Source: a virus
IMG/VR virus record: IMGVR_UViG_3300010885_057489
Coordinates: 1 to 27,572 of that record
Length of the DNA: 27,572 nucleotides
Strand: one strand, 5' to 3'
Notes under the pieces: model-generated
The model's database searches: none
Told to the model about the DNA's origin: nothing
The model's input: the letters and a program-made list of their open reading frames with translations, nothing else
In this document: positions 115-18,098 of the stretch, one piece after another
Layout: each line of letters opens with the position of its first letter
Position numbering within the stretch: position 1 is the stretch's first letter
Program-made: the position numbers and the translations under genes

Positions 115-3100
115 TTAGGTTAGTCCCCGTAAAAACCTTGCTGCCTGTGTATTGGTATCTTGCAAGGCCACACCATTGCTGGGTGTGCCCGGGCCGGGTG
201 CGTACCATGTGACTCCCCGACGTATCAATATGTTGATTTCAAGTCCAGCAGGTGGTGCTTCATCAAATTCAAAACTCACTGGAGCAAATCCAGTGAATGT
301 TCCGTCGTTGGTTGTTCTGATTCCACCAACGTAAATTTCAACTGCATCAAGATTTGCCTCGGTGGTAATGATGTCAGTGACAAATTCAACTGTGGTGCCA
401 TCTGACATAAATGTGTTGTTGACAATGTAATTTTGATACTGCTCTGGCAACAGATTGCCACGTCCGAGACTGTAAACTGTTGAGTCAATGTCATGTGAAG
501 CAGCGGCTGTTCCAGCTGTGCCACGTAACAAGCTGCTGATGGTATTGTTTACAGTATTTCTCTCACGATACATAATACGCTCGCCATTGACAGTCAGCAC
601 TCCCCAGACATTGGCTGCAAGATTAGGTTCGCCTTGTGTGGACGCATCTACTAGATAAATTACATCGTCGTATTGGCCCAATGGCTGTGCCAATTGTGTG
701 GTAGTAGCAACAGTCATACGGTAAGTGGCCTGCACGCCGCGCATGTCTTGGAATATGCGGAAGGCCATGGGCTCAGGAACAACGCTTTCGGTAAATTGTG
801 TGATCATTACCACGTCATTTGGTCCCAGTATGCCATTAGTCAAGATCAGTTCTTGCCCTACTATACCAAAACCAAATCCATAATACAGTCGACGACCATT
901 TACGGTTACCCACAGACGATCAGCATTGACCACAGTGCGTCCTAGGTCAAGATTATTAGATACAATAAGTGAGTCAGCACTAAAATCGAAAGGAGCCACC
1001 GGATAGTCTGGATCTCCTGGGCTGGTGCCATCGCCTTGATCATACCTGGTAGAATCATAAGGTTCAGTGATGGTTATGCCCACCTCCACTGGACCCACAA
1101 AAACTTGAGTCAAGATATTTTGTTGACGTGTGTCATTCCAAGTTGTGACTTCGATCACGTCACCAATGCCAGGTTCAAGACCTTGCCCTAAACGGAAATT
1201 CAATGTTGAATCTCCTCGGTTTACATAGCATTGTGTGTTGGTGTCAACACAGATCAAAATTCGTGATCCAATGGGAGGATCTTCAGCAAATATCACCACA
1301 CGCCGTCCATCATATCCATTGAATGGGTTGTAGGGCTCAACTACATAGTCAACATTTAATATCAAAGGAATATCATTGATATAAACATTGACTTCGTTGT
1401 CGGCAATGAGTGCGTAACTAAATCCTAGACGATCTGGAATCAGATATTCACTACTGCCATCGCCGTAGTATTCAATACCAGCACTAGTTCTGGCACGTAG
1501 ACCATTGACTGTGACAATCAAATTATCAGGATTGGTATAGGCCAAACTGTTGTCAAGCTCATAGGTCAATGTGGATCTATCACCTGACATTATTTGTGTT
1601 ATTGGAGCACTCCAACTATAATCTATAACTTCAATGTTATCCACTGTGGTTGGTCCAATGGCTGTCAATGTTACCATTTCGGTGGCACTGAATGAGTTGG
1701 CAAACGTAATCTTGGTGCTGTTGATATTGGCCAGGAATGTCAAAACACCGCTGGGTTGGCTGTCCGGTGGTGCGCTGATTACCAATGCAGTGCCACTGAG
1801 TTTTCCTACCACTGTTTGTCCGCTGGTGAATCCTGTTCCTACAATCAAGGATCCCAACTGTATGCCCAAAGTACTGATTACCACCAAAGTGGTTCCACTG
1901 CTGCCAGTTGGGTTGTAAGGTGAAGATATTCCAGTGGTTGCGTATTCTGGTGCATAGGTATAGTTGGTCGTCAAGTTTCCATTGACAAAAATTGCAAATT
2001 CTAGAATTTGATTATAGACCACAGGAACTGACAATTCAGTGCCAAAAGTGGATCCACGATATGAATTTTCAAATAACTGATTTCCACCGCCAAGGCCATA
2101 GACAGAAATCACAACGATGTCGCCTGGAGCTACGCTTTGGATCATGGTTATGGTCTGTTCAACCCAGTCAAGCACATAGGCAACATCTTGTGTAAGATCC
2201 TGTCCAGTGGTTAAATTAGTAACAATCACCGACTGCGGATAAGGAACTAGATCTGCCCAGCTTTGTGTTGGATTCAATGGATCAAAAATAAATTTAGTAG
2301 ACTGAGTTGGAAATCCGTGCCCGTTGAGTATCCAATCGCTGCCGGCTCTGGTGTACACACGAAAATCCAATGTGTCAAACTCTGCCCCGGGTATAAGTTC
2401 TTCCGGAGCATAACTGCTGTAAACGTCTACGTAGCCACCGCCGTCGACGTTGACATCGGTTGGACGAGTTCCTAGATATAGATCTAAGTAACTGCTACCA
2501 TAGATAGTGTCAAGTATGCCCGGATCATAGGTCGGGAATCCTTCTGGGCTGATACTGAAATTATCAAAAGGATTGATGTCAAAGTTTCCTACATCAAACC
2601 CAGTGTTTTGATCAAAATTGATTCCTTTGACTTGTACTCCTGGATAGTCAACTCCGTCAATCAACAAAGGCAAACTCAGACCAGGTTGGTTGACTGTGGG
2701 TGCATAGAATCCCATGGTACGATCTACACCGCTTAGGGTATCGGCAGGTACCGGAGTCCATTGTTCCAGATCGAATATGCTGTTGTTTACAGTGCCCACA
2801 GCTGACCATACACGATCAATATAACGAACCTGCGTGCCGGCAGGATAGGTTACATTGGGTTGCCATTCAAAGATAGTTGTGGAGTACTGGTAACGGTCAT
2901 ATTTGATAACAGTTTTAAAAGTTCTAATCAGGTCATTGCCCATGTTGGCCACAGCTCTTGCGCCAACACCGTTGCCGGTTATCGTTATTGTTGGGGTACT
3001 ACTGTAACCACTGCCAGGATTGACGATATCAATACCAATGACACGACCTGCAGAATTGATTACTGCCGTTAGTTCTGCAGGCTCAGTACAGGTACCTGTC

Positions 3101-6100
3101 ACGGTGATTTCAGGAACTGCGGTATATCCAGCACCACCAGAAATTATGGTCACACTTTGTACACTCAACAAGTAATTGTTATACCAATCTTTCCAAGGAG
3201 CCAAGGTCCAAATTTCTGCGTTGCTGGCCACATCGCTGGTGTTGCTTTGTATAAAACTGCCAGACTGTGTGTAAGGCAACAAGATAGGACTAACAAATTG
3301 TGGAATTGTAAGCAAGCGGTCGTAGTACGCTGGCAAGTCATAATCAGTTAAATTACCAGGGTAGGCATCGTCACCATCATAGGTAAGATTGAACTCACGT
3401 ATTTGTACGTGATAGGGCTTGACTTCTTGTATGTAATCCAGCACAAAGTCTTGATTGTCACGCAGATAATTTTGGAAAGGTAACAGAGCACGAATCTTGT
3501 GGTCCACATCAATCAAACTGGTTTTTATCAACCATTCTGGTATTTCACTCTCGCTATAGACAAAGTTGAATACTAACATTAGACCGAGATTGCGTTCAAT
3601 CAGCAATTCATCAATGAACAATTCTTCATTGATGGCTCGTATAATTTGTCGAGTTTCTATAACAGGTTCTTGATCAAAGTATTGTGCATCAAACACTTCA
3701 ACATCAAATCCAAAATTTCCAACAGCATAGTTCCAAATTTCTTCTTTGATCTCAATGGTTCCGTTTTGCAATCCCACACGATTCCACCCAAGATCGGTTC
3801 TCAAGTAAATTTCAAATTTGCCTTGGGCATTGGCCGTGACTTTGACACTGCTACCCACCGGCGCCTGTGACAGAGTCAGTGTGCGTAGGTCTGAATAATT
3901 TGCTACTTCTGCCACGGGTTGTATGGTGCGGTTGTAACCGGGTTCATACCAGTCAATGGTATTCCAATAGCGACGTGTGTCATAGTTTTGTACTCTGACA
4001 AGTTTGGTATTCCGTTGCCCTAGCAATCCATCTTCGACTTCGTAGATGGTCCAAAGTCCGCCTTGGCCACTGTCAGATACTACCAAATACTTGTAACCCA
4101 AAGGAACTGCCCTGATATTCTGGAAACTGAGTTCTTCAATGTTGGCCACACGTTTGTTCCAGGCACCCGAGGCGGATGATGGCTCGGGTTCACTGCTGTT
4201 CAACAGATTGAACCTGCGTATTTCCACCATTGGGAATTTTAAAAATATGTTGTTGGCCCGTTGCAGATAATTTTGCAAAGCAACGAATCGATCAACAAAC
4301 ATGCTTTGTCTTGGACGGAACTGCACACCAAAACGTTCGGCTGGGCTCAACATTGGATCTGGCACATTGGCACCGAATACGTTTACACCGCAAAAACTAT
4401 CCAACAATTTTCTATACAAATTATCATTGAGGAAACTGTCGGCACGCCCACTGGCAATCAGTTGGTATTCTTGATGAACATTGGCCGATGTCAGCTGGCG
4501 ATCATATTCAACATGCAAAATTGTATCAGCAGCACTAATAATATCCAAGGCATTATAGATGGCTATGGTACTGGAGTTCAATGGTGCTATGTAAGGTATT
4601 CCACTGCCTCTTGGGTTTTCAATATAACTAGCAATGCCCACTGTGCTCAGTGTTTTACCTGCAACAACATCAATTGTGGTTATGCCACGCACCCAAAAAT
4701 AATAACGAGTTTCAAATATGTTGAGCAGATTCAAACTCGAAGTTACTGTGTAACTGGTTGTGCTGAGAGCAATACCGGGTCCGGTGTAGCTCACCGGTGG
4801 AACTGAACTACTGACCCACTGATAGATGTCTACACGACTACCCGGGAACACTTGTCCCCATCTACGACTGGCATAAGTGATATTGTCCTGATTAGGATCA
4901 ATAAATCTCACTGTGTCTGTGTCCCACCAAATTTCTCCCACATGCTCTTGAGCCCAGCTGTTGCCTAAATTATGCACAGGACCAGTGTTGTAATCTGCAG
5001 GATCAACTGCACCAATATAATCAATGTTACGACGAGCCGCACCAAGTATCTTGCCCTGTAATGGGTTAAAGAAATCAAAATATTGTTGAGCGTTGGATGT
5101 GAGTCTATCGTACATGAACACACTGTTGATCTGATCTATATTGACCGACGGTTGTTGCAGGATCTGTACTGCCCAGGCCGGTGTATTGTCAGGATTATTG
5201 TATACCGTGACTTGGCCATAGTTGGCCTCGGCTACTTGTTGATCGTTACCGGGTGATCCTATCAATAATCTTCCATTGCGATAGTTAACTGCAAAACCAA
5301 ATCGATCGTTGGTAGCAGAAGTGTCGTCGTATACTTGTTGTCCAAATATCAATGCTCCGGGATTGTTGATTGACGATGTAGCACTGGGCAACAAATCAAA
5401 AGTGTAAGCCACACCACTGTTGAATACTGGTGAGAAGAATGTGGTACTGCGATCATCAAAATAAGTTTGAGCAAGGTCAAAGGTCACAGGGGCATACACA
5501 TCGCCATTGGGCGCACCCACTATCAAATTTACGGCTGTGCTGTCAACATCCAGACTTTGACCAAAGTAAGCATAGTCGGTGGGATTAGGACTCACAATGG
5601 TTTGTACATAGTAATAGGTGTCAAAACCTAGATCATCAAATGCTGTACCTGTCACCCCGGGAAGAACTGTGAGTTTGTTGTTGGGTACCGTGGCCTGGAT
5701 GTTGACCACACTCACTGTCATGCGTCCAGAAACCACAGTTATTGTTGTGCCAAAAGTGGGTGCGGCTACAAATATCAACTGTTTTGTATTGTTGTTGTAG
5801 GTATAATCAACTCCGGCAGTTTGTAACACAGTGCCCAAATAGACCACAGTGGTATAAGCTGTTGTGGCACTGTATATGGTTCCTACATCAAATATCTTGG
5901 TTACACTGTCGCCTGACAAAACCAGATCTGTTGTGGCCGATGCTATCACATTGGGTATTCCAGCTGAATTAATAGCTGATATCAATCCTTGTATGGTATT
6001 GTTGGGAGCAAGAGGAACAGCAACTTGAGTGTTGTTGATTCTTATAGGATCTCCAGCAACCAGTGTAGGATTGGCCTTGGTTGTTGAAATGACTCCGTAG

Positions 6101-9100
6101 ACTCGACTTTGATTTACGTTGCGTTGTACTTGTCCTTCCTGTGGAAGAGTCACTGTGGCCAGTGGCTCTCCAGTGTATACACTGCAATTGTTTGAACAGA
6201 TTTCCACGGCAGTACCAAATGCACTTTCATCTTGGGCCGTGGCCGAAACAATTTTTTGTATTTGCTGGAATTCATTGGTTTCAATTTCTATAACGTCACC
6301 AATGGTCAAACTTGTTGTACTAGACAACACAACGTCAGATCCCACCACGCTGAATTGACCATTTTTAAAGTCATCTGAATTGTTCAAAAACTGATTGTTT
6401 AGAATTACCGAGATTGGTCCCTGAGGAGTTCCTGGCATGGCATAAGTCAACTGTGTGACATCTGTTACCAAGTAGCGAATCACGCTACGATCAAACGCAT
6501 AAACTGAACCAGCTTGATTCACCGCCCCGGCATCGTCTAAGGGCGAGCCAATCAAAATTTGGCGGCCGTCGGTGGCAGTGGTTACACTGGATCCAAATCC
6601 TGCATTTGCACCTAGACCGGGTACTGTGAGAGTTTCTACATATTGCCAATAAGATCCAGTTGATACACTGATGATTGTGCCCGGAGCTGGATTATTGATA
6701 AATGTGATCTGTGTTGTGCTGTTGTTAAATGTGTAATCAATAAATGGTCGCTGTAATTGTCCATCCACGGCCACAATAAACGAATAAATGTTAGTGGCTG
6801 TGTAAAGCTCTGGGTTAAGAGCAAAGGTTGTGGTGTTACCAATGCCGGTTCCGCTATTGGTAAATGTTGCTATTCCAGTGTTGGCATCAACTGTGGTCAC
6901 TGTGATTGTTAAATTGTTGGCCGGCGTGGCTCCACCAATTGCTGCTCCAAATATCACTATGGTATCACCAGGTGCATATCCAGATCCAGGCGAAACCAAA
7001 GTAGGAACGTAGGCTCCACGCACAGAATTCAGAGAAAACACAGCGCCTGATCCGACCCCACTGGTGGTATTTTGTAGTATTCCAAAATAGTTAAAGTCGT
7101 CGAGCTGTGCAACCTGGCGACGACTGATAGAAAGATTCAATCCTGCAGTCGGAGTACTGAATAACACTACCGTTGTGGCAGTTATCAAATAGTCAATGGC
7201 ATAAACAAGGTCTACGTTGATACCGCTTTGCAAATTGTCCAAGCTCAATACCAATTGGCCAGGAAACACACTGTCAATTTCAATGAAATTTGAATAGTTG
7301 AAGATGTTGGTGGCGCCGTCGGTCACATAAACCACACGCTGATTTTCTATTTCGACCTTGCCGTAGGCATAGACTTTGTTGCCGGCGGCAGCACCCACAT
7401 ACATCCAGCGTTCATCCGGGCTGATGGTCACTGCTGAGCCAAACTTGATTTGAGAGAAATCCAAATCAGGTGCTATCAACACCTGAGACAAAATATAATT
7501 GTTGCTGCCAGGTACCAAATATAGGACCACTGCATATCCAGCATAATTGTTACTGATGCTGGCACCAGCAACTCCCCAGGTACGATTACCAAAATCCACA
7601 CTGTTACCAAAGCCCAGAGTATCCACAGCGTTCAATTGTAAAATTATGTTGAAACCGTAATTACCGTCAATGGTTCTACGGTAGGTATAAACACTGCCAG
7701 CTGAATCTAAGGAACTGTCTTCAGCATCTAATCCCGGAGCTCCAACCAGAGCTGTAAAACTGTCGGCACCTTGGGCTATGGAAAACCCAAATTGGTTGTT
7801 GGTTATTGGGGCTTCTGCACGCAAGCGATCAAAATCCTTGAAGGGATTTTGTTTTTCTAAAACCACCCAGTGACCGGCACCATTGTCATCGACCCATACT
7901 CGTGCACCGGATACCAGACTGTTGGCATATGGCAAGGTGGCTATGTCGCTGGGCTGTGCTACTCGAGCTGTTTGCAAATAGAAAACCAGTCCGTCACCGT
8001 TGAGAGTGGTTTGATTGGTACTGATAAAATTGTAAGCAATGACTACTTGTGTGATACTGGGCACGGATAATACGCGATATACTCCGTCCACTGCTTCGCT
8101 GAAATAACGAACAATTATCAGATCTCCCACAACAAGGCTGTGTGCCGAAGTAAATGTGGCCACACTGGTCTGATTGAGGTTGTCTGCTACTTGTGTAAGT
8201 CGCCCAGCCACCCGTTCACATCTGTAAATGTTCCAATCATATGGATTGGTTTTTGCTACCCAAATTACAGTGCCGATGCCCACAGAATCTAAGTTGGCAG
8301 CAATACTGGAAGGATCATCAAGGCTGAACACAGTGATGTCTGCATCATTTAAGTTTACATAACCGGCACTGGGCAAAGCAGTATCACTGATGGTTGAATA
8401 AGTAGTAGGCAATATGTCAGTGCTGGTCAGTTTGAAACTTTCTCTCCAGACATCGCTCAACAACACAGTTTGATCTGCATCGCTGGGCTCCTGTGGATTG
8501 ATAACTTGTATCACACTGGGATTTGATTGCAAGAGAGCTTCATTGAGTCTGAGTTCAAAAAAGCTACGATTGGCATTGGCGCCATATGTGGACGACAGTA
8601 TGCCCCAGTTTTCATATATGTTGTATTCGCCACTTTCTTTGCCCAGGTCTGCACGGGTAAACAGTTCAGCTGAACGGATAGTTCCTTTGGTTCCCAGGAA
8701 CTGTTGATAGATATTGACCTGGCTGACATCGTCAAGATTCAATGCAGCCATGTACTGACGTGGACGGAATCCAATCAAGCCATAGCTCAACAAATCGTTG
8801 TCGCGTTCCAGGTTGGCACTATAGGTATTGTAACTGTTGGCCAACTGATCGGCCTTGTTGGCTATGTTAGGTAACAGGCCTTCTTGGATCAATGTATAAT
8901 CGGCCGTGACCCAATCGTTGAAATCAAACAATACCTTGGGTTGTACAATGGTCTGTGCCGACCAATAGACGTTTTTGTAAAGAACAATTTCACCCTTGGT
9001 GTATTTGCGATTGCTTTGCCATTCTTTGACATTGTTTTCGTTGAGAATAAATCCTTGTGCATCTACTTGTCCGTTCCATTCAGTGGTAGTGGCCGCCGTG

Positions 9101-12100
9101 ATCCGCACACGATTTTGTCGCGCAGCCGTAATTGGATCGTAGATCAAATCAGCAAAAATACTCACATTGTCTAACACGACCATGTGTTCATAGTTAGTAA
9201 ATCTCAGATGCAGATAACTTATGGTTTGATTTGAATCAGAAGTTATAGTAAAAGTATTTCCATTGCGATCTATCACAAGATCACGTGTGGGCAACACTTC
9301 ACGATTTTGATCCAATAGCATGTTCTCTGGTGTAAGGCTTTCGACGGTATCGACCACTGCGCCAGCCCTGACAGCTATCAGTCGATTGGCCACTGGATTT
9401 AGATTGATCAAAGTTCCTGTGGCCCACCCTTGTTGACTAAAATACAAGAATTCTGTGGCCATCTGGTTCCAGTTGAGTCGATATCCATTTTCAACATCAG
9501 TAAATATCAGGCCTTGACTTTCAAGATATGTGCCATAACTCAAGATAAAATCCACAACCATGGTAGTGTTGGTAAACACAAACCCATACGGAACCTGGAC
9601 TACAATGTCGGTGTAGTTGGATGGCACACGCACTTCAGCTCCGCCACCACTTACTGTTTGTAGTACTCCACCACTGGAGCTGGCAAAAATTTCAAAGTAT
9701 GGATTGGTAGTGCTGTATCCAAATACCGCATATCCTGTGGCCACACGTTCTACAATCAAGGCACTGTATACAATGTCGGCAAATGGCTGATTCTTGTACA
9801 ACAACAGATTGTAACTTTCGTCTGGCAACAACAGACTACTGTTTTGGCTGTTGGGACTGGATTTTTCTGTGAATATTTTTAGATACTGTTTGTTGGTAAA
9901 GCTGGCCATTCTATAGCACAGCCGTACATCAATATTGGACAGGTCGTCGGTCAATCTTTCAGTGCTGTTGCGACCCAACTGTTGATTGTAATCAACGATC
10001 CAGTTGATATAGCTGGCCTTGCTGATGCCACCTTGTTGTCCTGGCAAGCGTCCATAGACTTCGATTCCGCTGATACTGTCTTGTCCGGGAATTGGTCTCA
10101 GGCTCAATCTGTAACGGCCATCATATAAGTATTGATCAAATTCTGCGCTGAAACGATAACGATCACGATCAGCAAACAGGCTAAAGAATTCTGCAGGCCG
10201 TGTCAGGGCCAACAGGCGCATGACCGCAAATGGATAACTGCTGGATGTCCACCAGGAACTTTCAACAGGTCCGCCGTCGCCGACCACCCAACTCTTGCGG
10301 AATGCAGTAGGGTCATATGCGCCTACCACACTGTTGATTGGAGCCAACAACTGTCCTTCTGTGCCCACCGGTATAACTGATGTCAAACCTGGTCTGCGGA
10401 ATTTTATGATCACATAAGGTGCCACAGGATCAGCCACTAGGCCAGCTTCAAGGTCGTCCCACAATACCAAGTTGTCGCTGGTATAAGGCGCAGGACCATA
10501 TCGTTGTGTCCACCACACTGGTTCTTCACTGAACCCCAGCATTTCCCAGGGTGTTAGATTGGGACTGATGGTGTCATAAAAATATCTGTAGATTCCGCGC
10601 CAGGCACCCAGCAACGGACTTTCTCCTGTATTGCTGACTGTGCCGCCGCTGGTTATCCTGCTGCCAGCTGTGCTGTAATTGTAGGTAAACGGATTGTTGG
10701 CTACATAGTCCTGTGTTTTGTAATCTAGTTTGTTCCAGCCGATCCAACTTAAAAAACTTTCTCCAAGGATTGCAGTGATCTCAGTCTGCGTGTAATCTGT
10801 GGTGCGGAAAAATCCTGGAATGACATCATCAATGGTCAAGGGCACTGGATTGTCATCGGTCTTGAGATTGTTGTAAATGCGTGTTTCAAATTCTAACAAT
10901 ATCTCATCTCTGATGTCGCCAAATGTCAAAGTGATGCTGCCATCGTGACCTTGTATTACTGTTGTGGGATTAATATAATTGGTATCAACAAATATCCTTG
11001 GCAAATATTTGGGGTACAAGCCCATCTTGCTGGGAGTGTTGGGACAGAAATTTCCGGCGGTGTTTCGATATTCACGCAAGGTTACCACGTCGCCTACAAC
11101 CAAAGGCACCGTGACAGCCAATGTTGGTCCGTCAGTTGATACAACATAATCAGTGTGGCGGCTTAATAACCTGGTTGTACTTTGTCCTTGTTCTGGGCCA
11201 GTACGGGTGAGATATACCAGCAGTCCCTGGAAGTTGGCTGATGTAAAATCATAAGTCTGCTCAGTATCAAACACATTGGTTGTGATAGGTGTAACTGTGT
11301 ACGTGGTTTCTAAAAATACTGAACCAGTGGGCAACATGTCGCTCCAATAAAATGGATTGAGATCTGTGCGTCCTTGGGTAATTTCTGCAATGGTCAAGTC
11401 TAGGATTTGTGCCACAGTAGCATTTCCATACTCGTTGCGAACCACTGTTTCCAGCATGAGATTTTTAAACTTGATATATTCTCTAGAATTGTATTCTATA
11501 GCAGCAAAAATATCATATTCAAGATTTCTAGCAAAGTATCCAGCCAAGGTCAATGGACTTGACTGTTGTAGGATTTTCAAACCATAAGGAACAATGTTGC
11601 CTAGGTCACGTGTGTTGTTGGGTCCGTTGATAGGGCCTTGTAATGCAATCAGATTTTCTCCAATGGTGCCGTAATGGCTACGCACAGTGCCCAGAGTAAA
11701 TGTGTTGCTGTTGGCATTGATTGGATTGTTTTCTAAATTGATAGGTACCTGATAAAATCCTTGTGCGCTGACTTGATCACTGATGGCTGCAATTTCAATA
11801 ATGTCGCCAAGCACTACTCCGGTGGCCTCGGTCGTCAGGATCACTGTGGTTGTGTCTGCTGTGGTTGCCACTGAGTAACGACTTGGATCCTGGAACCTGG
11901 CATTGACATACAACTGGATTGCAGGAACTGTGACAGAATCACTGACCTTGACATCCAACTGCAATGGACGACCTTCGTAGATAAATCTGAATTGTTGCCG
12001 AGTTATGCTGGGAGTGACGGCTGTTTGCCAACCCAGTTCTCTTACAAAAGCAACTCGATTCAAATAACGATGCACAAACCCAGAACTGATTGCTTCCGTT

Positions 12101-14691
12101 GTACTGACTGAATCTTTTACATATATAAAAGTATCTGTGTATAGATTGTTGTCAAACACAATGTCACCGATGTTGGCCAAGTTAAGATATTTCAAAGCAA
12201 ACTCCAGCACTGGATCGTCTGGACCAGTACCTGGGGCATAGCTTAGTAACTTGCTACCTGTGAAAGTTGAACTAGGATATTTGACCAAATTTCCAAGACT
12301 GATTTCAGAACTGTCAAATACGTCAAACAACGGTGCTTGATTTAAACTTTGTTTGTCTTGTCCTGGCAACCATGTTACACCATCATAGTAAAAACTTTTT
12401 CCTTGTAAAGTTATACCACTCAAACATACCACAGTTTGATTGATTTCTATATCAGCATCCGACGCAGGTACCAAATTGATAATAGGTTGCAATATCAATG
12501 GATCTTGTGTGTCAGGCATGATGAATTCAACTTGATATATCTTGTTTCTGACATCGGGGTTACGATCGGCTGCAAAAATAACTCGAGTTCCATTGATAAA
12601 TGAATATCCATCCACACCATATCCCAGTGTACCATTGACGTTGCTGAGTGCATCTGTGGTTTGAAAATCAATAATGTTGACCGGTTGTTTGCCTTGGGTT
12701 CCAAAATTAAACAAGCGTGTGCCGGCACGGAATTCCAAGATTGGTCTGCGGCCACGTGCAGCGTTGTCCACTGTGGGTTGTATGTTGTTGAGTGCAGCTG
12801 AATAGTTGATTACATCTATATGGAACCAGCGGTTGCTACGACTCCAGCCATTGAGATCTGGACTAGCTCGGTTGATAGTCAAGTAGTCGGGCCTTGCAGG
12901 AGCATTCAGTGTGCCATCAAAATTGCCCACATCGTAGGGCAATTGATCAAAGGCAATACTGGCACTCTGCGTGTAAGTTTCGGGTGTGACAAAATCAGTC
13001 ACAGGCAACAGGCGTATGGCCGTGCCTACCCCTTCCACGTAGTAACTTTGGTTTTGATAGCTGGCAGGATCAACGTTGCCACGGAAAACTACTTTGAGAC
13101 CATTGGTGAATACTACTCCGTTGGGACTAGTATAGGTAGGGCGATCAATTATGTCGTCAATTCTCAATGTGGAAGAGTCCAACGGATCTATCAGACGGAT
13201 TTCTCCAAACAATGTTGGATCTAGACCATCTTGGTAGTACAACACACTCATGACTGCGGTCAACAGCGGAATCTGTTCAAATAGTCCTTGGGTATTTTTG
13301 TACCATCCAGTGCTGGCATATTGTGTGCCATACAGAATTGAAAACTTTTCCAGATTGTTCACAGTCAGCACATTGGTCAATTGTATGTACTCAGTGCCGG
13401 CTATGTCTACATAATTGATTCTCCAGACATTGTACCTGAGAGAGGGTGGCACAGTGCCCCAGCCGCTATCAGTGTATTGGAATACCAAGGTGCGATTGTT
13501 GAGGTCAACTATGTCGTCAATGCCAAATATATTTTCAATAAAAAACTGCTCAACTGTTTTGCCATTGATTTGATCATACTGCAACGTGGTTATTAAATCC
13601 ACTCCAGGAAGCTCGGTCAAGTTATAATAAAAACTTTGTGCTGTGCTCAGAGGCACATCAAATGTGATGGTGCCAAGATCTTCGCCGTTGTTGGTCACCC
13701 CTAAAACATCTCTACTGCTGATGTTGGGAGTGGCTGGCAATTTTCCGTTGACTCCTGGAGCAGCTTGTATCCAAAAGCCCGGACCGGTGCCAGGCGTGGC
13801 ATCAACTATGTTCATGGTACCACGCATGTTAAGTTGCGTGGCGCTACTGTAATACAGCACATCCGGTGCATCTTGAGGCACCACAAAAGTCACGGTTCCG
13901 ATACTGGCACCATTGTTGGTCACGCCCGAATCCCAGGTATTGATATTGCCCAGGCTGGGCAGTGTTTTGATGAAAAAAGGAAATAACCCAGTCAGTGACA
14001 AAGTAAATGTGTAGGTGTTGCCACGCACCAGTGTCAAAGTGGGATTGGGCTCGTAGTTTATTAGATATGCAGAAATACCTCGATTCTGCACACGGAAATT
14101 TATGTTTTGTTTGTCATTCTGCGCCACTTGAAATGTATAACTGCCGCCGCGTACCAAGGTCAACGCAGGATTGGTTCCACCTACTCCACTAAACGTGTAA
14201 GTGCCGTTTGCTCGTGTGACTACGAAATTGTCAGTAGACAAAACCGTGGACGAAGAAACATCCACGTCAAGAGGACCACTGGGCAACCAATAGTATTGTT
14301 GATAGTTTACAAACTTATCAAAGTCAACAAATGGATCCCAGGCATAGTATTCGCTGGTGTACAGTCTGTCTGAATTGTTAGTGTAAGCGCCTTGCAATCT
14401 CAGTGCATCATTGATTCCCGGATAGGTGATTACATCATTGATATTGTTGGGACCGGGCTCAAGACCGACAACTCCAGGTTCCAATTGATAATCATTGCGT
14501 GTCTTGGTGGGCTCGATTACATAACGATCTTCTGGATTGACTCCAGGTCCAACACGACGTCCAACGAATCCTTGCGTTTTTTGGAATTTTGGCTCTTGTA
14601 TGAGTTGATCTAGTGTGGCTGCCAAAAACTGTCGATTGACCGGAGTTTGGAATATTTCTGGTAAGAAATCGACCGAACGTACTCGTGCCAT
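115..14691 (-). CDS. Giant (4858 aa) multi-domain baseplate/tail structural protein in the gp7 position
   Basis: A single uninterrupted frame follows gp6 by a TAATG overlap, with GGAG (14699-14702) 7 nt before the ATG. The N-terminus (VDFLPEIFQTPVNRQFL) is of a kind I associate with very large structural proteins of marine T4-like phages. Modules visible in order are: a tandem cupredoxin-like region (about 174-297, partial third copy 328-356); a long region rich in Trp and Tyr to about 1880; a CBM5/12-like motif (1889-1926); seven FG-GAP repeats (2301-3150) interrupted by inserts; a conserved-looking helical stretch (about 3500-3800); Gly-rich GSGY segments (near 2563 and 3850-3915); a second CBM5/12-like motif (3942-3978); and repeated short 'VNG...DY' beta modules toward the C-terminus. 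No protease, lyase or chaperone domain is evident. T4 gp7 is about 1030 aa, so homology with it is only positional. The likely role is wedge-attached or host-contacting tail structure; this is inference. Confidence 0.8.
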   Translation of the reverse strand: MARVRSVDFLPEIFQTPVNRQFLAATLDQLIQEPKFQKTQGFVGRRVGPGVNPEDRYVIEPTKTRNDYQLEPGVVGLEPGPNNINDVITYPGINDALRLQGAYTNNSDRLYTSEYYAWDPFVDFDKFVNYQQYYWLPSGPLDVDVSSSTVLSTDNFVVTRANGTYTFSGVGGTNPALTLVRGGSYTFQVAQNDKQNINFRVQNRGISAYLINYEPNPTLTLVRGNTYTFTLSLTGLFPFFIKTLPSLGNINTWDSGVTNNGASIGTVTFVVPQDAPDVLYYSSATQLNMRGTMNIVDATPGTGPGFWIQAAPGVNGKLPATPNISSRDVLGVTNNGEDLGTITFDVPLSTAQSFYYNLTELPGVDLITTLQYDQINGKTVEQFFIENIFGIDDIVDLNNRTLVFQYTDSGWGTVPPSLRYNVWRINYVDIAGTEYIQLTNVLTVNNLEKFSILYGTQYASTGWYKNTQGLFEQIPLLTAVMSVLYYQDGLDPTLFGEIRLIDPLDSSTLRIDDIIDRPTYTSPNGVVFTNGLKVVFRGNVDPASYQNQSYYVEGVGTAIRLLPVTDFVTPETYTQSASIAFDQLPYDVGNFDGTLNAPARPDYLTINRASPDLNGWSRSNRWFHIDVINYSAALNNIQPTVDNAARGRRPILEFRAGTRLFNFGTQGKQPVNIIDFQTTDALSNVNGTLGYGVDGYSFINGTRVIFAADRNPDVRNKIYQVEFIMPDTQDPLILQPIINLVPASDADIEINQTVVCLSGITLQGKSFYYDGVTWLPGQDKQSLNQAPLFDVFDSSEISLGNLVKYPSSTFTGSKLLSYAPGTGPDDPVLEFALKYLNLANIGDIVFDNNLYTDTFIYVKDSVSTTEAISSGFVHRYLNRVAFVRELGWQTAVTPSITRQQFRFIYEGRPLQLDVKVSDSVTVPAIQLYVNARFQDPSRYSVATTADTTTVILTTEATGVVLGDIIEIAAISDQVSAQGFYQVPINLENNPINANSNTFTLGTVRSHYGTIGENLIALQGPINGPNNTRDLGNIVPYGLKILQQSSPLTLAGYFARNLEYDIFAAIEYNSREYIKFKNLMLETVVRNEYGNATVAQILDLTIAEITQGRTDLNPFYWSDMLPTGSVFLETTYTVTPITTNVFDTEQTYDFTSANFQGLLVYLTRTGPEQGQSTTRLLSRHTDYVVSTDGPTLAVTVPLVVGDVVTLREYRNTAGNFCPNTPSKMGLYPKYLPRIFVDTNYINPTTVIQGHDGSITLTFGDIRDEILLEFETRIYNNLKTDDNPVPLTIDDVIPGFFRTTDYTQTEITAILGESFLSWIGWNKLDYKTQDYVANNPFTYNYSTAGSRITSGGTVSNTGESPLLGAWRGIYRYFYDTISPNLTPWEMLGFSEEPVWWTQRYGPAPYTSDNLVLWDDLEAGLVADPVAPYVIIKFRRPGLTSVIPVGTEGQLLAPINSVVGAYDPTAFRKSWVVGDGGPVESSWWTSSSYPFAVMRLLALTRPAEFFSLFADRDRYRFSAEFDQYLYDGRYRLSLRPIPGQDSISGIEVYGRLPGQQGGISKASYINWIVDYNQQLGRNSTERLTDDLSNIDVRLCYRMASFTNKQYLKIFTEKSSPNSQNSSLLLPDESYNLLLYKNQPFADIVYSALIVERVATGYAVFGYSTTNPYFEIFASSSGGVLQTVSGGGAEVRVPSNYTDIVVQVPYGFVFTNTTMVVDFILSYGTYLESQGLIFTDVENGYRLNWNQMATEFLYFSQQGWATGTLINLNPVANRLIAVRAGAVVDTVESLTPENMLLDQNREVLPTRDLVIDRNGNTFTITSDSNQTISYLHLRFTNYEHMVVLDNVSIFADLIYDPITAARQNRVRITAATTTEWNGQVDAQGFILNENNVKEWQSNRKYTKGEIVLYKNVYWSAQTIVQPKVLFDFNDWVTADYTLIQEGLLPNIANKADQLANSYNTYSANLERDNDLLSYGLIGFRPRQYMAALNLDDVSQVNIYQQFLGTKGTIRSAELFTRADLGKESGEYNIYENWGILSSTYGANANRSFFELRLNEALLQSNPSVIQVINPQEPSDADQTVLLSDVWRESFKLTSTDILPTTYSTISDTALPSAGYVNLNDADITVFSLDDPSSIAANLDSVGIGTVIWVAKTNPYDWNIYRCERVAGRLTQVADNLNQTSVATFTSAHSLVVGDLIIVRYFSEAVDGVYRVLSVPSITQVVIAYNFISTNQTTLNGDGLVFYLQTARVAQPSDIATLPYANSLVSGARVWVDDNGAGHWVVLEKQNPFKDFDRLRAEAPITNNQFGFSIAQGADSFTALVGAPGLDAEDSSLDSAGSVYTYRRTIDGNYGFNIILQLNAVDTLGFGNSVDFGNRTWGVAGASISNNYAGYAVVLYLVPGSNNYILSQVLIAPDLDFSQIKFGSAVTISPDERWMYVGAAAGNKVYAYGKVEIENQRVVYVTDGATNIFNYSNFIEIDSVFPGQLVLSLDNLQSGINVDLVYAIDYLITATTVVLFSTPTAGLNLSISRRQVAQLDDFNYFGILQNTTSGVGSGAVFSLNSVRGAYVPTLVSPGSGYAPGDTIVIFGAAIGGATPANNLTITVTTVDANTGIATFTNSGTGIGNTTTFALNPELYTATNIYSFIVAVDGQLQRPFIDYTFNNSTTQITFINNPAPGTIISVSTGSYWQYVETLTVPGLGANAGFGSSVTTATDGRQILIGSPLDDAGAVNQAGSVYAFDRSVIRYLVTDVTQLTYAMPGTPQGPISVILNNQFLNNSDDFKNGQFSVVGSDVVLSSTTSLTIGDVIEIETNEFQQIQKIVSATAQDESAFGTAVEICSNNCSVYTGEPLATVTLPQEGQVQRNVNQSRVYGVISTTKANPTLVAGDPIRINNTQVAVPLAPNNTIQGLISAINSAGIPNVIASATTDLVLSGDSVTKIFDVGTIYSATTAYTTVVYLGTVLQTAGVDYTYNNNTKQLIFVAAPTFGTTITVVSGRMTVSVVNIQATVPNNKLTVLPGVTGTAFDDLGFDTYYYVQTIVSPNPTDYAYFGQSLDVDSTAVNLIVGAPNGDVYAPVTFDLAQTYFDDRSTTFFSPVFNSGVAYTFDLLPSATSSINNPGALIFGQQVYDDTSATNDRFGFAVNYRNGRLLIGSPGNDQQVAEANYGQVTVYNNPDNTPAWAVQILQQPSVNIDQINSVFMYDRLTSNAQQYFDFFNPLQGKILGAARRNIDYIGAVDPADYNTGPVHNLGNSWAQEHVGEIWWDTDTVRFIDPNQDNITYASRRWGQVFPGSRVDIYQWVSSSVPPVSYTGPGIALSTTSYTVTSSLNLLNIFETRYYFWVRGITTIDVVAGKTLSTVGIASYIENPRGSGIPYIAPLNSSTIAIYNALDIISAADTILHVEYDRQLTSANVHQEYQLIASGRADSFLNDNLYRKLLDSFCGVNVFGANVPDPMLSPAERFGVQFRPRQSMFVDRFVALQNYLQRANNIFLKFPMVEIRRFNLLNSSEPEPSSASGAWNKRVANIEELSFQNIRAVPLGYKYLVVSDSGQGGLWTIYEVEDGLLGQRNTKLVRVQNYDTRRYWNTIDWYEPGYNRTIQPVAEVANYSDLRTLTLSQAPVGSSVKVTANAQGKFEIYLRTDLGWNRVGLQNGTIEIKEEIWNYAVGNFGFDVEVFDAQYFDQEPVIETRQIIRAINEELFIDELLIERNLGLMLVFNFVYSESEIPEWLIKTSLIDVDHKIRALLPFQNYLRDNQDFVLDYIQEVKPYHVQIREFNLTYDGDDAYPGNLTDYDLPAYYDRLLTIPQFVSPILLPYTQSGSFIQSNTSDVASNAEIWTLAPWKDWYNNYLLSVQSVTIISGGAGYTAVPEITVTGTCTEPAELTAVINSAGRVIGIDIVNPGSGYSSTPTITITGNGVGARAVANMGNDLIRTFKTVIKYDRYQYSTTIFEWQPNVTYPAGTQVRYIDRVWSAVGTVNNSIFDLEQWTPVPADTLSGVDRTMGFYAPTVNQPGLSLPLLIDGVDYPGVQVKGINFDQNTGFDVGNFDINPFDNFSISPEGFPTYDPGILDTIYGSSYLDLYLGTRPTDVNVDGGGYVDVYSSYAPEELIPGAEFDTLDFRVYTRAGSDWILNGHGFPTQSTKFIFDPLNPTQSWADLVPYPQSVIVTNLTTGQDLTQDVAYVLDWVEQTITMIQSVAPGDIVVISVYGLGGGNQLFENSYRGSTFGTELSVPVVYNQILEFAIFVNGNLTTNYTYAPEYATTGISSPYNPTGSSGTTLVVISTLGIQLGSLIVGTGFTSGQTVVGKLSGTALVISAPPDSQPSGVLTFLANINSTKITFANSFSATEMVTLTAIGPTTVDNIEVIDYSWSAPITQIMSGDRSTLTYELDNSLAYTNPDNLIVTVNGLRARTSAGIEYYGDGSSEYLIPDRLGFSYALIADNEVNVYINDIPLILNVDYVVEPYNPFNGYDGRRVVIFAEDPPIGSRILICVDTNTQCYVNRGDSTLNFRLGQGLEPGIGDVIEVTTWNDTRQQNILTQVFVGPVEVGITITEPYDSTRYDQGDGTSPGDPDYPVAPFDFSADSLIVSNNLDLGRTVVNADRLWVTVNGRRLYYGFGFGIVGQELILTNGILGPNDVVMITQFTESVVPEPMAFRIFQDMRGVQATYRMTVATTTQLAQPLGQYDDVIYLVDASTQGEPNLAANVWGVLTVNGERIMYRERNTVNNTISSLLRGTAGTAAASHDIDSTVYSLGRGNLLPEQYQNYIVNNTFMSDGTTVEFVTDIITTEANLDAVEIYVGGIRTTNDGTFTGFAPVSFEFDEAPPAGLEINILIRRGVTWYAPGPGTPSNGVALQDTNTQAARFLRGLT
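2758..2868 (-). other. CBM5/12-like motif 2 in the giant protein
   Basis: Residues about 3942-3978 read EWQPNVTYPAGTQVRYIDRV, then WSA, and close with EQW. The pattern is the same as in the motif near residue 1889. It follows Gly-rich segments with the GYxxxPxITITG pattern at 3850-3915. Confidence 0.45.
5242..7791 (-). repeat. Seven FG-GAP repeats (integrin-type beta-propeller) in the giant protein
   Basis: Seven blades are visible, each starting FG-[xS]-[AS]-[VLI] and ending in a GAP/GSP/GEP-type turn. The Phe residues are at 2301, 2361, 2417, 2699, 2825, 3043 and 3131. Examples are FGSSVTTATDGRQILIGSP and FGFAVNYRNGRLLIGSP. Blade 3 ends in GAA, so it is a degenerate copy. Some blades are followed by a strand such as AGSVYTY or GQVTVY. 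Seven is the number needed for one closed propeller. Spacings of 60, 56, 282, 126, 218 and 88 residues show that three gaps hold large inserts. The classic DxDxDG calcium loop is not kept in the blades. Confidence 0.7.
8914..9027 (-). other. CBM5/12-like (chitin-binding type) motif 1 in the giant protein
   Basis: Residues 1889-1926 read KEWQSNRKYTKGEIVLYKNV, then YWSAQ, and end near FNDW. The spacing (W, about 5 residues, Y-x-x-G-[DE]-x-V, aromatic pair, closing W) is that of the small carbohydrate-binding CBM5/12 fold. It may contact a surface polysaccharide or only be a structural beta module. Confidence 0.45.
13798..14172 (-). other. Cupredoxin-like tandem domain lacking most metal ligands
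   Basis: Residues 174-298 of the giant protein contain two similar starts, NPALTLVRGGSYTF and NPTLTLVRGNTYTF. They are followed by LFPFFIKT (236-243), GVTNNGASIGTVTF and VLYYSSATQLNMRGTMNI (279-295). This is the framework of the cupredoxin-like domains of marine phages, where the pattern is HPFxIxT then YYxCxxHxxMxG. Here the first His is Phe237, Cys is Ser283 and the second His is Gln286; only Met289 remains. A partial third copy follows near 328-356 (GVTNNGEDLGTITF). The domain probably keeps the fold as a structural beta-sandwich and does not bind copper. Confidence 0.6.
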
Positions 14692-17600
14692 TAGATAACT
14701 CCACTACCTGGCGCTGTACGCAAATTGGTACTGGTCAAGGCCTGTATGACTTCAACGTTGTTGACCGTGGCTGCATTGACAAAAATCTGACTGGGCGCAC
14801 TGCGGATTTCATACAGATCACCAAAAAACTTTTGTTGATTCAATGGTACCACAACCACACTGCTGACAATGTCTCCAATCTGTGCGTGCAGATAAGCAGC
14901 AAGTTCTGAAAAGTAGAATGTGTCGCCAAAGTTCCATTTGTCAAGACTGAAATAAGCATCCATGTTGGCCACAACCAAGTTTTTAATTTCGCTCACGCTG
15001 GCGGTGCTGTTGGCAGCTCTAATGACCTTGATGGTGGCACGCAGTTCTTCTGCGGCCTTGGCACCAAACAAGGGTTTGAATTCCACACTGTTGACGATCA
15101 TGTTGTCGCTGATCATCTTGTAATCTTGTAGGCCAGAATAATCAGTGGTCAGTTGATCAATGGTCGGTGGCAACGGTTCTGGTACAGTGCCTGTGCTATC
15201 TTTGATCCAATTCTGATAAGCTGTGTAGTACTGCAGGGTAACCACATACAAGTCAATGATATTGGTACTGCCAGGATCCAGCCTTGAAGTCAACGGACTG
15301 TTGTGACGATATTGGAAATACAAACTCTGTCTGCCAACTCTGGCGATAAAATCATTGCGCAGTACCAACACACGGGTTCCGTTGTTGGGATTTACTGTCA
15401 ACGAATAAAATAATTGTTGTGAATACGCATAAAAAACCTGCCCGTCAACATAACTTTGTTTGACCAACTCAATGTCATCCAAGGTTGCATAGTCACTATT
15501 GACTATGCCAGGTTCGACCAGTAGATAACGTTGCAAATTATCAAAATCCACGGTGCTTTGCAAGAACACCAGTTTGAGATTGGGTGTGACATCTGGAGCC
15601 ACGATGTCATTGAAAAAATCTGGATTGTCTGGAACACCGTCACTGTCGGTGTCCTCAAAACCCACCAGGACCTGGAAGTCGTCCACAAAGCCGTCGCTTT
15701 GCACAGGTTGGCCAATGATGCGCAAACGTGTGTCACCTTCCAAGGGCATGTTGCTGTCGGGCTTGCTGTTGGTTTTAAGTACGTTGACAAAGTCTCTGAT
15801 GGTGGTTCCAGTTCTGCTGTCAAATATTTGTTGACCTGTGAAAAAGAAAAATCTGGTTTCTAACACGCTGCCAAAATAATAGTCCAGGCTGCGACTAGAC
15901 ACTGTGTAATTTTCTCCATCAGTGATGGCCTCTATAAACCAACTTGCGTCATTGTTGATACCAGCGGTGCTTTGTGCATTGGCCAGACTGAATTCCGCAC
16001 CCACGTCAAGATTGGTACTGGTAATCAGATACCAAGTGGCTGTCAAATTGTTGTAACCCAGCCCCCAATTTCTATTCAGCGTGATTTGATCTAAAATACT
16101 CTGTCTGATTGTGCTGTTCAGATCAGTCACAAACAAAGGAATCACTTGTGTGGCTATGGCACCAGTGGGCACATAATTGTTCAAGGTCACTGGACCTACA
16201 CCGTTGCTGAAATTGCCCAGACCTTGATTGGTTCCATCTAGATACACTGCTGTGGGACTGGCCCAGATCACTAATTTTTCGTCGGCTCGTACAGGAACCC
16301 CAGCTACCAATTGATTACTGGAATTGAAAAAATAACCTGCAGGTGGTACGAATTTGACCAGGCTTCCGACCACAATATAGCGTTTGTTGTCAGAGGTGTA
16401 ATTGCCAATGGCCTCAGGTGTGCCCAATGTATTTTTAAAATATCCAGTGGTCTCATTGGCCAAGGTGGTACTTTGTTGCCAAATCACATTCAGTGCGATC
16501 AAGTCGGGCCTAGGATAGTTGGCGTAATAAAACTGTCGAGCACCGGCGGCTATCAAAGTGGGTTCAATCTGATTGGTAATGATACTGGAAATATCATTGT
16601 TGTTCAGCCAGGTAAAATTAAAACCAGGCAAATTGTTGGCTTCATACAGGGCGCCGTCGCTGGCAAAAATATTGGTTGAGCTATATTTGCCTGTGCCATC
16701 TACCAGATCCAAATAACGACTGGTGCCTATGCTGGCACGATTCAAGGCCTTGCTTTTTAAAATACTGTTGTAGGCTGTGAATGGAAAGTTGTTGTAATCT
16801 TCACCATTGACCATGCGATTTTGTGTGTAATATCGAGCTGGGGCACGCTGTTTGATTTCGTCAATGGTTTCGCGTGCCTGGGCATTGGTCACTGGCTGGG
16901 TGATACCACAGGTAAATGTTATGGTCTCTAATTGTCCGGTGCGGCTTACATAGCTGATAGGTATGACCACACTTTGCATTTCTTCTGGATTGATAATGTA
17001 TTGCAGGCCATTTGATGCCCGCACATAGCAACGGAATAGGCCCACTGGAATGGCACTGAACACTCCATCGCCAAAATTCAAAGCAATCTGATCGTTGACT
17101 CTGGATGTGGTACTGAATAAACTTCTGACGTTGGGTATAAGTTGTTCTACTGCTGCTGCATAAACACTTTCCACATACTGCCACTCAGTGGCCACGTTGC
17201 CCAGGTTGTCCAACTGATATAACCAACGATCGGTGTTGTTGATTCCTTCGATGTTGATATTGACTTGGCGATTGGCTATGCGTTCTGGCAGGTTGAAATC
17301 TTGATTCTGCAAAACACCCTGCTTGAACAAAAAGAAATAACCTGTGTTGGCCGACGCAAATCCCAATTCGTCGTTGCGGAACAAAATATTAAATTGACCA
17401 TTGGGCAAAGGGCTGGGCTCATACACAAATTCTTTTCCAGCGGCTGTGGCATTGACTGCTTCAAACGGCATGTTAACTCCGTCCACGGTGGCCGTGTAAG
17501 GTACCACTGGCAGGAATCCCGGAACCAGATTCACAGTGTATTCATCGGTCCTTACACCAAGTATGGTGCTTCTTGCTCCAGGACGACCCACACGCTGGGT

Positions 17601-18098
17601 GTCGGTCAGGCTGGCATTGATGATGGCTGTAAACTGTTCTTGCCAGTCAAAGTTTGTGGGATCGGCCCAGTTTACCGTGACATTGGCCAGGTTAACACCG
17701 TTGTAATCTATGACATTTTCTGTGGTTTGCACTGAAAATATTTTGAGATATCCCTGTGAGGCTGTGTTTCTTTTGGGTGTGTAAGATACCAAGTTGGCCA
17801 GTTTGACCACGCTGTCCCGGCGTTCTGCTGTGTCTAGGTAATTTTCACGTGTGTTTAGGTCTGTGCGGAAGGCCAAGGCCTGGCCCATGAAGGCCATGAC
17901 ATCCAAGAGGGCAATAAACTCTGAGCTCTCAATGTAATCGTTGAATGTTTCTGGATAATAAAGACGCAGATAGTCCACAAAACTTTTGCGCAGAGTTTCA
18001 AAATCATAGCTTTGGAAGTCGGCTTCTCTATAGGTTTGATAGATACGTTTCCAATCTTCAACACCAAATATTGCAGTTTGTCTTGTGGTTGTGGCCAT
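14691..18098 (-). CDS. gp6: Baseplate wedge protein gp6, enlarged (1135 aa)
   Basis: gp6 forms the ring of wedge dimers that carries the T4 baseplate. The N-terminal signature is strong: LRKSFVDYLRLYYPETFNDY, then ESSEFIALLDVMAFMGQALA and a TAERRDSVVKLANLVSYTPKRN segment (about residues 36-110). A middle segment ARYYTQNRMVNGEDYN and a C-terminal block (KWNFGDTFYFSELAAYLHAQ) also fit gp6. T4 gp6 is about 660 aa; the extra roughly 475 residues appear to lie between the middle and C-terminal blocks. That region includes a DxDxDG calcium-type loop at 816-827. The ATG at 18096-18098 has only a weak GGA upstream, and a late-promoter-like box lies 18 nt away. The stop overlaps the giant gene's ATG as TAATG, suggesting coupled translation. 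Confidence 0.9.
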   Translation of the reverse strand: MATTTRQTAIFGVEDWKRIYQTYREADFQSYDFETLRKSFVDYLRLYYPETFNDYIESSEFIALLDVMAFMGQALAFRTDLNTRENYLDTAERRDSVVKLANLVSYTPKRNTASQGYLKIFSVQTTENVIDYNGVNLANVTVNWADPTNFDWQEQFTAIINASLTDTQRVGRPGARSTILGVRTDEYTVNLVPGFLPVVPYTATVDGVNMPFEAVNATAAGKEFVYEPSPLPNGQFNILFRNDELGFASANTGYFFLFKQGVLQNQDFNLPERIANRQVNINIEGINNTDRWLYQLDNLGNVATEWQYVESVYAAAVEQLIPNVRSLFSTTSRVNDQIALNFGDGVFSAIPVGLFRCYVRASNGLQYIINPEEMQSVVIPISYVSRTGQLETITFTCGITQPVTNAQARETIDEIKQRAPARYYTQNRMVNGEDYNNFPFTAYNSILKSKALNRASIGTSRYLDLVDGTGKYSSTNIFASDGALYEANNLPGFNFTWLNNNDISSIITNQIEPTLIAAGARQFYYANYPRPDLIALNVIWQQSTTLANETTGYFKNTLGTPEAIGNYTSDNKRYIVVGSLVKFVPPAGYFFNSSNQLVAGVPVRADEKLVIWASPTAVYLDGTNQGLGNFSNGVGPVTLNNYVPTGAIATQVIPLFVTDLNSTIRQSILDQITLNRNWGLGYNNLTATWYLITSTNLDVGAEFSLANAQSTAGINNDASWFIEAITDGENYTVSSRSLDYYFGSVLETRFFFFTGQQIFDSRTGTTIRDFVNVLKTNSKPDSNMPLEGDTRLRIIGQPVQSDGFVDDFQVLVGFEDTDSDGVPDNPDFFNDIVAPDVTPNLKLVFLQSTVDFDNLQRYLLVEPGIVNSDYATLDDIELVKQSYVDGQVFYAYSQQLFYSLTVNPNNGTRVLVLRNDFIARVGRQSLYFQYRHNSPLTSRLDPGSTNIIDLYVVTLQYYTAYQNWIKDSTGTVPEPLPPTIDQLTTDYSGLQDYKMISDNMIVNSVEFKPLFGAKAAEELRATIKVIRAANSTASVSEIKNLVVANMDAYFSLDKWNFGDTFYFSELAAYLHAQIGDIVSSVVVVPLNQQKFFGDLYEIRSAPSQIFVNAATVNNVEVIQALTSTNLRTAPGSGVI

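Follow-up and report, generated by a model that had tools for sequence, protein, structure and literature searches.

An integrin-alpha-like seven-bladed FG-GAP propeller predicted in a giant baseplate-cluster protein of uncultivated jumbo phages

The DNA considered here is a single IMG/VR virus record, IMGVR_UViG_3300010885_057489 (27,572 bases, hereafter the window), in which one minus-strand frame (115-14691) encodes a giant virion protein of 4858 amino acids (aa). Our favoured reading, held with middling confidence, is that an FG-GAP propeller of seven blades, resembling that of integrin alpha, forms part of this protein at a wedge position of the baseplate and serves there as a rigid platform for docking or for binding a ligand. 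The fold itself (integrin alpha heads, Pfam FG-GAP_2) and propellers in podophage tails are already known; what is new is the combination, namely that an integrin-like FG-GAP ring sits in a giant protein of a baseplate cluster and characterises a large uncultivated clade.

The seven FG-x-[SA]-[VLI] motifs that the original prediction had read as the blades of one propeller (Phe 2301, 2361, 2417, 2699, 2825, 3043 and 3131) are all present in the product. The pattern occurs eight times in the protein, every copy lying within aa 2250-3200, and in 1,000 shuffles the whole protein gave a mean of 0.60 copies (maximum 4) and aa 2250-3200 a mean of 0.12 (maximum 2). The GxP that was thought to accompany each motif is found in five of the seven blades but is missing from blades 2 and 3, which read AGAS and VGAAA. 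The spacing from Phe to Phe (60, 56, 282, 126, 218 and 88) is very uneven because of three inserts. Relatives for comparison were drawn from IMG/VR, where a single-sequence scan found six and an alignment scan gave 475 candidate stretches, 390 of which encode relatives; the best 80 were kept and joined with loci L008 and L009, making 82 relatives that are all open through the region (83 rows with the window). The G of the seven motifs is conserved at 90-100% (82-83 rows), and a blade profile, built from the relatives' own alignment, finds four to seven blades in each of the 82. The eighth motif (2581) was rejected as a blade, as it sits in an insert, its G is 51% conserved and it has no blade-profile match above 50%.

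Profile searches point the same way. FG-GAP_2 (PF14312) matches the protein in three stretches (41.5 bits against a cut-off of 23, E 1.6e-10), so that the anticipated family match was borne out for this profile, whereas a search at E<=1 gave no match of the window to the classic FG-GAP profile (PF01839). When profiles of single blades were compared with hhalign, the probability exceeded 50% in 11 of 21 blade pairs and in none of 70 pairings of a blade with a control, the top control (26%) overlapping blade 6 and ending just before blade 7; the most divergent is blade 2, for which none of the six pairs reaches 15%. The propeller alignment searched against PDB sequences gave a best E of 0.21.

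An AlphaFold2 model of aa 2200-3250, computed from the 83-row alignment (predicted local distance difference test score, pLDDT, 85.2; predicted template modelling score, pTM, 0.83; last 70 residues, with pLDDT <50, left uninterpreted), is ring-shaped and of integrin type, as had been foreseen, and its secondary structure predicts seven blades of four strands each. All 50 entries listed by VIA-align (961 chains aligned) are integrin alpha chains, the best being 9t3y chain A (Z 40.5, root-mean-square deviation 2.6 over 359 residues, model 83-978 or aa 2282-3177, 16% identity). Foldseek places Elongator and SF3B propeller chains at ranks 1-4 for this long model and integrins from rank 5; the template modelling (TM) scores are low, as one would expect of a model enlarged by inserts. 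The original prediction had set the limits at 5242-7791; the ring is larger, covering aa 2282-3179 (window ~5155-7848) with an N-terminal strand included. Its parts are as follows, blade limits being taken from the AlphaFold2 model.

5155-7848, minus strand: seven-bladed FG-GAP propeller with inserts, aa ~2282-3179 (Pfam, AlphaFold2, VIA-align)
7819-7839, minus strand: N-terminal strand KDFDRLR before blade 1, aa 2285-2291 (DSSP strand 86-91 of the model)
7639-7791, minus strand: blade 1, aa 2301-2351
7477-7611, minus strand: blade 2, aa 2361-2405
7354-7443, minus strand: blade 3, strands A-C, aa 2417-2446
6652-7353, minus strand: blade 3 C-D loop insert, aa 2447-2680, with beta modules including the ~60-aa repeat and a GSGY module; holds the chance motif 2581
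6628-6651, minus strand: blade 3, strand D, aa 2681-2688
6469-6597, minus strand: blade 4, strands A-C, aa 2699-2741, overlapping the best FG-GAP_2 stretch (aa 2682-2733)
6295-6468, minus strand: blade 4 C-D loop insert, aa 2742-2799
6250-6294, minus strand: blade 4, strand D, aa 2800-2814
6112-6219, minus strand: blade 5, strands A-C, aa 2825-2860, with conserved Cys2832 and Cys2836
5617-6111, minus strand: blade 5 C-D loop insert, aa 2861-3025, with two modules (2862-2945 and 2945-3010)
5596-5616, minus strand: blade 5, strand D, aa 3026-3032
5332-5565, minus strand: blade 6, aa 3043-3120
5416-5502, minus strand: blade 6 B-C loop, aa 3064-3092 (TFDxxxTYFDxxSTxFF..SG), recognised in distant compact propellers too
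5155-5301, minus strand: blade 7, aa 3131-3179

By analogy with integrin, the N-terminal strand would close blade 7. Sequence and model agree on three large beta-rich inserts, one each in the C-D loop of blade 3, blade 4 and blade 5; they contain a recurring module of ~60 residues, a weak copy of which lies near the C-terminus of the protein. L008 and L009 are without the GSGY module of the blade 3 insert and have an insert of ~70 aa between blades 2 and 3 instead, the place at which some integrin alphas carry their I domain. The first module of the blade 5 insert (aa 2862-2945, window 5857-6108) reads 'LTAGDTIRINN..V.VP...I.GL..AINAA.IP.V.AS' and has no Pfam match; we take it to resemble the flagellin-hook IN motif.

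Contiguous propellers of ~400-460 residues, without large inserts, were met in several loci of a second scan, which was led by the orthologue of the cultured jumbo phage PA5oct and from which the best 80 of 590 loci were kept, so that it is not a census; the two scan sets are not fully independent, since L158 and L087 come from one contig. In the second set, 43 loci have both the propeller and the C-terminal (C) flank, nine have the C flank without a propeller and 28 lack a recognised C flank, five of the latter with a propeller match. One compact form, L114, was modelled with AlphaFold2 from an 11-row alignment (pLDDT 72.3, pTM 0.77); the model aligns with integrin alphaL (Z 34.5 over 361 residues), WD40 proteins reach up to Z 31.9, and the first seven Foldseek rows are integrin chains. 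Compact propellers also match FG-GAP_2 (L114, E 1.2e-24 with 86.7 bits; L103, E 1.1e-20; L144, E 4.7e-16), and L114 reaches E 0.005 with PF01839, which is below the cut-off.

The full integrin calcium motif DxDxDGxxD is present in none of the 83 rows of the main alignment and none of the 11 rows of the L114 alignment; a shorter pattern, D.[DN].[DN]G, is found in 17 and 3 rows, respectively, the window having none. Integrins bind calcium in the A-B loop of some blades. Two cysteines in the A-B loop of blade 5 (Cys2832 and Cys2836, window 6184-6198) are conserved in 93% and 92% of the 83 rows, which makes them a candidate disulfide or metal site.

The placement of the gene in a baseplate cluster, as originally proposed, holds, as it follows a gp6-type wedge gene that itself adjoins a gp25-type gene, and the record of the PA5oct orthologue carries a note on electrospray ionization tandem mass spectrometry (ESI-MS/MS).

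115-14691, minus strand: propeller-bearing giant virion gene, 4858 aa (phrog_10938 'virion structural protein', E 5.9e-285; orthologues in jumbo phages)
14691-18098, minus strand: gp6-type baseplate wedge gene, immediately upstream of the giant gene (phrog_10646, E 8.8e-281; phrog_219, E 1.2e-24)
18144-18518, minus strand: gp25-type baseplate wedge gene, next to the gp6-type gene (PF04965, E 3.7e-6, 27.1 bits, just under the cut-off of 27.2)

Another gene upstream of the giant gene has a phage-baseplate OB domain. The giant protein is an orthologue of phrog_10938, both ends being homologous and the position after the gp6-type gene being the same. Directly after the gp6-type gene is also where T4 gene 7 lies, and the giant protein matches T4 gp7 in position only, as sequence homology to gp7 was not detected (hmmsearch E 5.3 for the N half and 0.87 for the C half; hhalign probability ~0.1%). 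Ten T4 proteins were searched in all and none was convincing, the best being gp5 (E 0.018, C half). The whole giant protein has no PDB sequence relative and NCBIfam gave no match, both at E<=1; searches of the PDB with the two halves returned weak chains alone, the best being deacetylase DA1 (E 0.004, N half) and chitinase A1 (E 0.029, C half), which presumably reflect chitin-binding modules. The contigs with the giant gene are called 'jumbo' because the longest measure 343, 337 and 317 kb, most being fragments.

Several other parts of the protein and its surroundings deserve mention. Two copies of a unit 'TLxRGxxYTF...TVTFxVPxDAPxxLYY', which we take to be cupredoxin/YHYH-like, lie in aa 150-500 (window ~13194-14244), a stretch that is shortened or missing in orthologues and part of which (query 198-297) matches a tail-fibre-like gene of cyanophage P-SSM2 at 43.6% identity. 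Two weak stretches resemble chitin-binding type 3 (CBM5/12) modules: aa 1890-1911 (window 8959-9024), for which Pfam CBM_5_12 gives E 0.08, below its cut-off, and aa 3938-3996 (window ~2704-2880), placed by reading the sequence, which also matches residues 1268-1326 of Atu_ph07. Downstream of the giant gene in L025 (18371-22463) there are a phrog_11259 gene, a tail-fibre-like gene of 426 aa (19027-20307), an unmatched gene of 336 aa and a gene weakly matching phrog_1903, presumably a glycosyltransferase; these are candidate partners of the propeller.

The giant gene is shared with cultured phages, and the propeller marks one part of its distribution. Genes of cultured jumbo phages annotated as 'virion structural protein' match the N part in 79 records and the C part in 63, and seven cultured orthologues were examined further, including those of PA5oct, 121Q, CBB, SCTP-2, Atu_ph07 and Phosso. 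None of the seven has a match to the propeller core, to the blades or to FG-GAP_2 in this gene. The conserved flanks lie ~100, 80 and 50 residues apart in PA5oct, 121Q and CBB, compared with ~1000 in the window-clade profile, and other sequence fills the site in SCTP-2, Atu_ph07 and Phosso. A hidden divergent propeller in Atu_ph07 and Phosso was considered and rejected (hhalign at most 7.8%, located in the flank; no core-profile match). Elsewhere in the genomes, FG-GAP_2 (E<=0.1) is found in none of the other five isolates and in other genes of Atu_ph07 and Phosso. The Phosso genome (PV764938.1) has 64 such matches, at ~48-69 kb and 92-95 kb and none in the gene studied, mostly in two giant frames (3702 and 3182 aa) and for the rest in two short ones (429 and 398 aa).

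A tblastn search of 50,697 phage records (limit 1e-5) gave no match to the propeller region itself. In the same records the compact L144 gave no match and the compact L114 gave two weak ones, to a separate FG-GAP gene of Phosso and to a 'TolB' gene of Synechococcus phage S-SCSM2R. A pattern search of bacterial and archaeal genomes for hints of a host returned 197 matches, none of them a relative. In ten large contigs (177-343 kb), every FG-GAP_2 match at E<=0.01 lies within the giant frame; at E<=0.1, contig G006 has an extra weak match (E 0.07) in a frame of 699 aa.

A tree was built from a conserved block (aa 1215-1700), 145 rows being reduced to 95 by clustering at 85% identity; it omitted 22 rows without a propeller match or recognised C flank, most of which end early although L105 has 4944 aa, and three rows whose matches were short, including 121Q and CBB. 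All five isolates placed in this tree fall in its propeller-less part. When 121Q, CBB, L104 and L105 were added (99 rows, 81 with and 18 without a propeller), two changes still suffice to explain the distribution; shuffled distributions needed 16.8 on average and none of 500 was as low as two, which shows clustering only. A propeller-less subclade (L132, L133 and L147) sits inside the propeller clade. One gain and one loss would be the simplest reading of these sequences, not the only one. L104 and L105, which have neither a detectable propeller nor a recognisable C flank, form a long branch near PA5oct.

On average, the propeller core is under purifying selection. Ratios of nonsynonymous to synonymous substitution rates (dN/dS) against L004, L005 and L006 (L004 and L006 being cut by contig ends) are 0.051, 0.065 and 0.106 for the core and 0.128, 0.117 and 0.130 for the inserts, which thus evolve slightly faster; the remaining segments of the gene range from 0.019 to 0.114. 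In the deep clade, the blade 6 B-C loop was the sole loop tested: of the 43 complete propeller-bearing open reading frames in the second set, 38 match its profile (TFD..TT.FD..ST.F.D....SG) at E<0.01 and five score E 0.011-0.11, and none of 16 propeller-less frames is matched at E<0.01. A hand-written pattern for this loop proved too strict (21 of 123, missing the window itself) and was replaced by the profile.

Taken together, these results suggest the following arrangement. Two conserved parts of the giant protein would flank the variable site that holds the propeller, and as the ends of the ring come back together, the disc could occupy a loop and leave the framework undisturbed. There would be one copy per giant subunit, most likely displayed outside the baseplate, and in the window three extra sets of beta modules would project from the C-D loops of blades 3-5. 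A binding function would follow by analogy with the fibre-docking propellers of podophage nozzles (discussed below). Because it marks a large uncultivated group and is found in none of the cultured relatives examined, the disc is probably a long-retained platform for docking or attachment. The original prediction had offered receptor contact or a protein-docking platform, which are two distinct functions; of these, we lean towards docking because of the low average dN/dS, the two-change distribution and the nozzle precedent. The partner we would put first, at roughly an even chance, is a further tail protein of the phage, for instance a fibre or the connector of one, and a fibre protein is more likely than a fast-evolving host receptor.

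Alternatively, the propeller may be a host-contact adhesin for reversible attachment, its target being a conserved glycan or protein on the cell surface, and may act in concert with carbohydrate-binding-like modules of the same protein. We regard this as possible, if not preferred, and a conserved host glycan or protein as a plausible second choice of partner. An integrin-like head fold, the weak chitin-binding type 3-like stretches, the DA1 and chitinase A1 matches, the D-A loops as the least conserved class and the higher dN/dS of the inserts (0.117-0.130) than of the core would all fit such a role, whereas the average core dN/dS (0.05-0.11), the tracking of the gene tree by a domain that is not swapped over a deep clade, and the ability of propeller-less isolates to infect their hosts argue against it. 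A purely structural role, our third choice, is improbable: as a spacer, the propeller would merely enlarge or stiffen the baseplate like other beta modules of the giant protein, and the recurrence of such modules, the low dN/dS resembling that of the rest of the gene and the propeller-less subclade inside the propeller clade are in keeping with this. However, the blade 6 B-C loop is kept in compact and expanded forms alike, beyond the needs of a spacer, and the ring stays while inserts come and go. Another propeller class (WD40 or lactonase-like), with a no more than generic likeness to integrin, is hardly credible, as FG-GAP_2 scores above its cut-off, VIA-align lists integrin alpha chains throughout for the window model and Foldseek puts integrins first for the compact one, even though Elongator and SF3B chains outrank them for the long model, the WD40 protein Ciao1 accounts for the Z of 31.9 with the compact model and L144 also matches Pfam Lactonase (E 1.4e-5).

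Several points weigh against this favoured reading. For phages that bear the propeller, neither a binding partner nor an assembly position nor virion data were found, and the seven isolates infect without the propeller, which the wedge as such can therefore do without. The dN/dS values average whole segments over three close pairs, with which positive selection at single sites is compatible. Conservation of the top and bottom faces is similar (2.45 and 2.57 bits, p=0.40), neither face being more conserved, so that no conserved interface stands out, and conservation is lowest in the D-A loops (2.23 bits), which would suit a surface turned towards the host. The nozzle precedent comes from podophages and has no known sequence link to the propeller, and gain and loss are not separated because the tree is unrooted and came from a quick search that warned of long branches. 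More tentatively still, an integrin-like head in each wedge arm might define a large uncultivated jumbo clade as an expandable attachment hub, with the ring acquired once and loop modules added later, as integrins gained the I domain; this extension we consider rather doubtful.

Among known systems, integrin alpha heads (alphaM, alphaX and alphaL; PDB 9t3y, 7usm and 5e6s) likewise arrange seven FG-GAP blades in a ring and, as here, have modules inserted into blade loops. In contrast to integrin alpha, the window is without the full calcium motif and without a PF01839 match, its inserts are small beta modules in C-D loops, and its propeller belongs to a phage virion protein rather than a membrane receptor. 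The nozzle proteins of SU10 (gp17) and T7 (gp12) are built round a seven-bladed propeller and form a hexameric DNA channel in short-tailed phages (PMC9509320, PMC6702177); in SU10, the loop that docks the short fibre extends blade 1, and the ring also takes in nozzle domains as insertions (PMC9509320). Podophage nozzles are like the window in placing a seven-bladed propeller at the tail tip and inserting domains into its blade loops; in the nozzles, a fibre dock is attached to the propeller. The giant gene that encodes the ring of the window, in contrast, belongs to a baseplate cluster of contractile-tail type. Perhaps also a nozzle protein, chain U in PDB 9k09 (cyanophage A4 tail) ranks sixth in Foldseek with the long model (E 8.3e-8, TM 0.10).

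From Pfam FG-GAP_2 proteins the window differs in that its blades are spread over ~900 residues with inserts, in a 4858-aa protein of a baseplate cluster. The phrog_10938 proteins of 121Q, PA5oct, Atu_ph07 and SCTP-2 are products of the same gene, without a propeller in the isolates examined, and the FG-GAP proteins of Atu_ph07 and Phosso do have FG-GAP_2 repeats in jumbo genomes, but as separate genes elsewhere. FG-GAP proteins exist in other viruses, and matches in BFVD include an Atu_ph07 'hemagglutinin' (target TM 0.65). Full-text searches of the available papers that combined FG-GAP with jumbo phage, phage baseplate or bacteriophage tail fiber found no paper, and those for FG-GAP with phage and beta-propeller, or integrin-like with bacteriophage, propeller and tail, returned papers that, by their listings, are on other subjects. 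In the available portions of the texts, FG-GAP and integrin have no occurrence in the T7 paper (PMC6702177) or in a paper on contractile injection fibres (PMC12923769), nor do propeller, integrin, FG-GAP or adhesin occur in a jumbo-phage review (PMC13282480).

The propeller thus offers a simple marker, in sequence and in fold, for a large phage group of which no cultured member was found among the 50,697 phage records. It indicates that a baseplate protein of contractile-tail type can include an integrin-type head, and it singles out one domain and, within it, one loop (blade 6 B-C) that may serve fibre docking or host contact in these phages.

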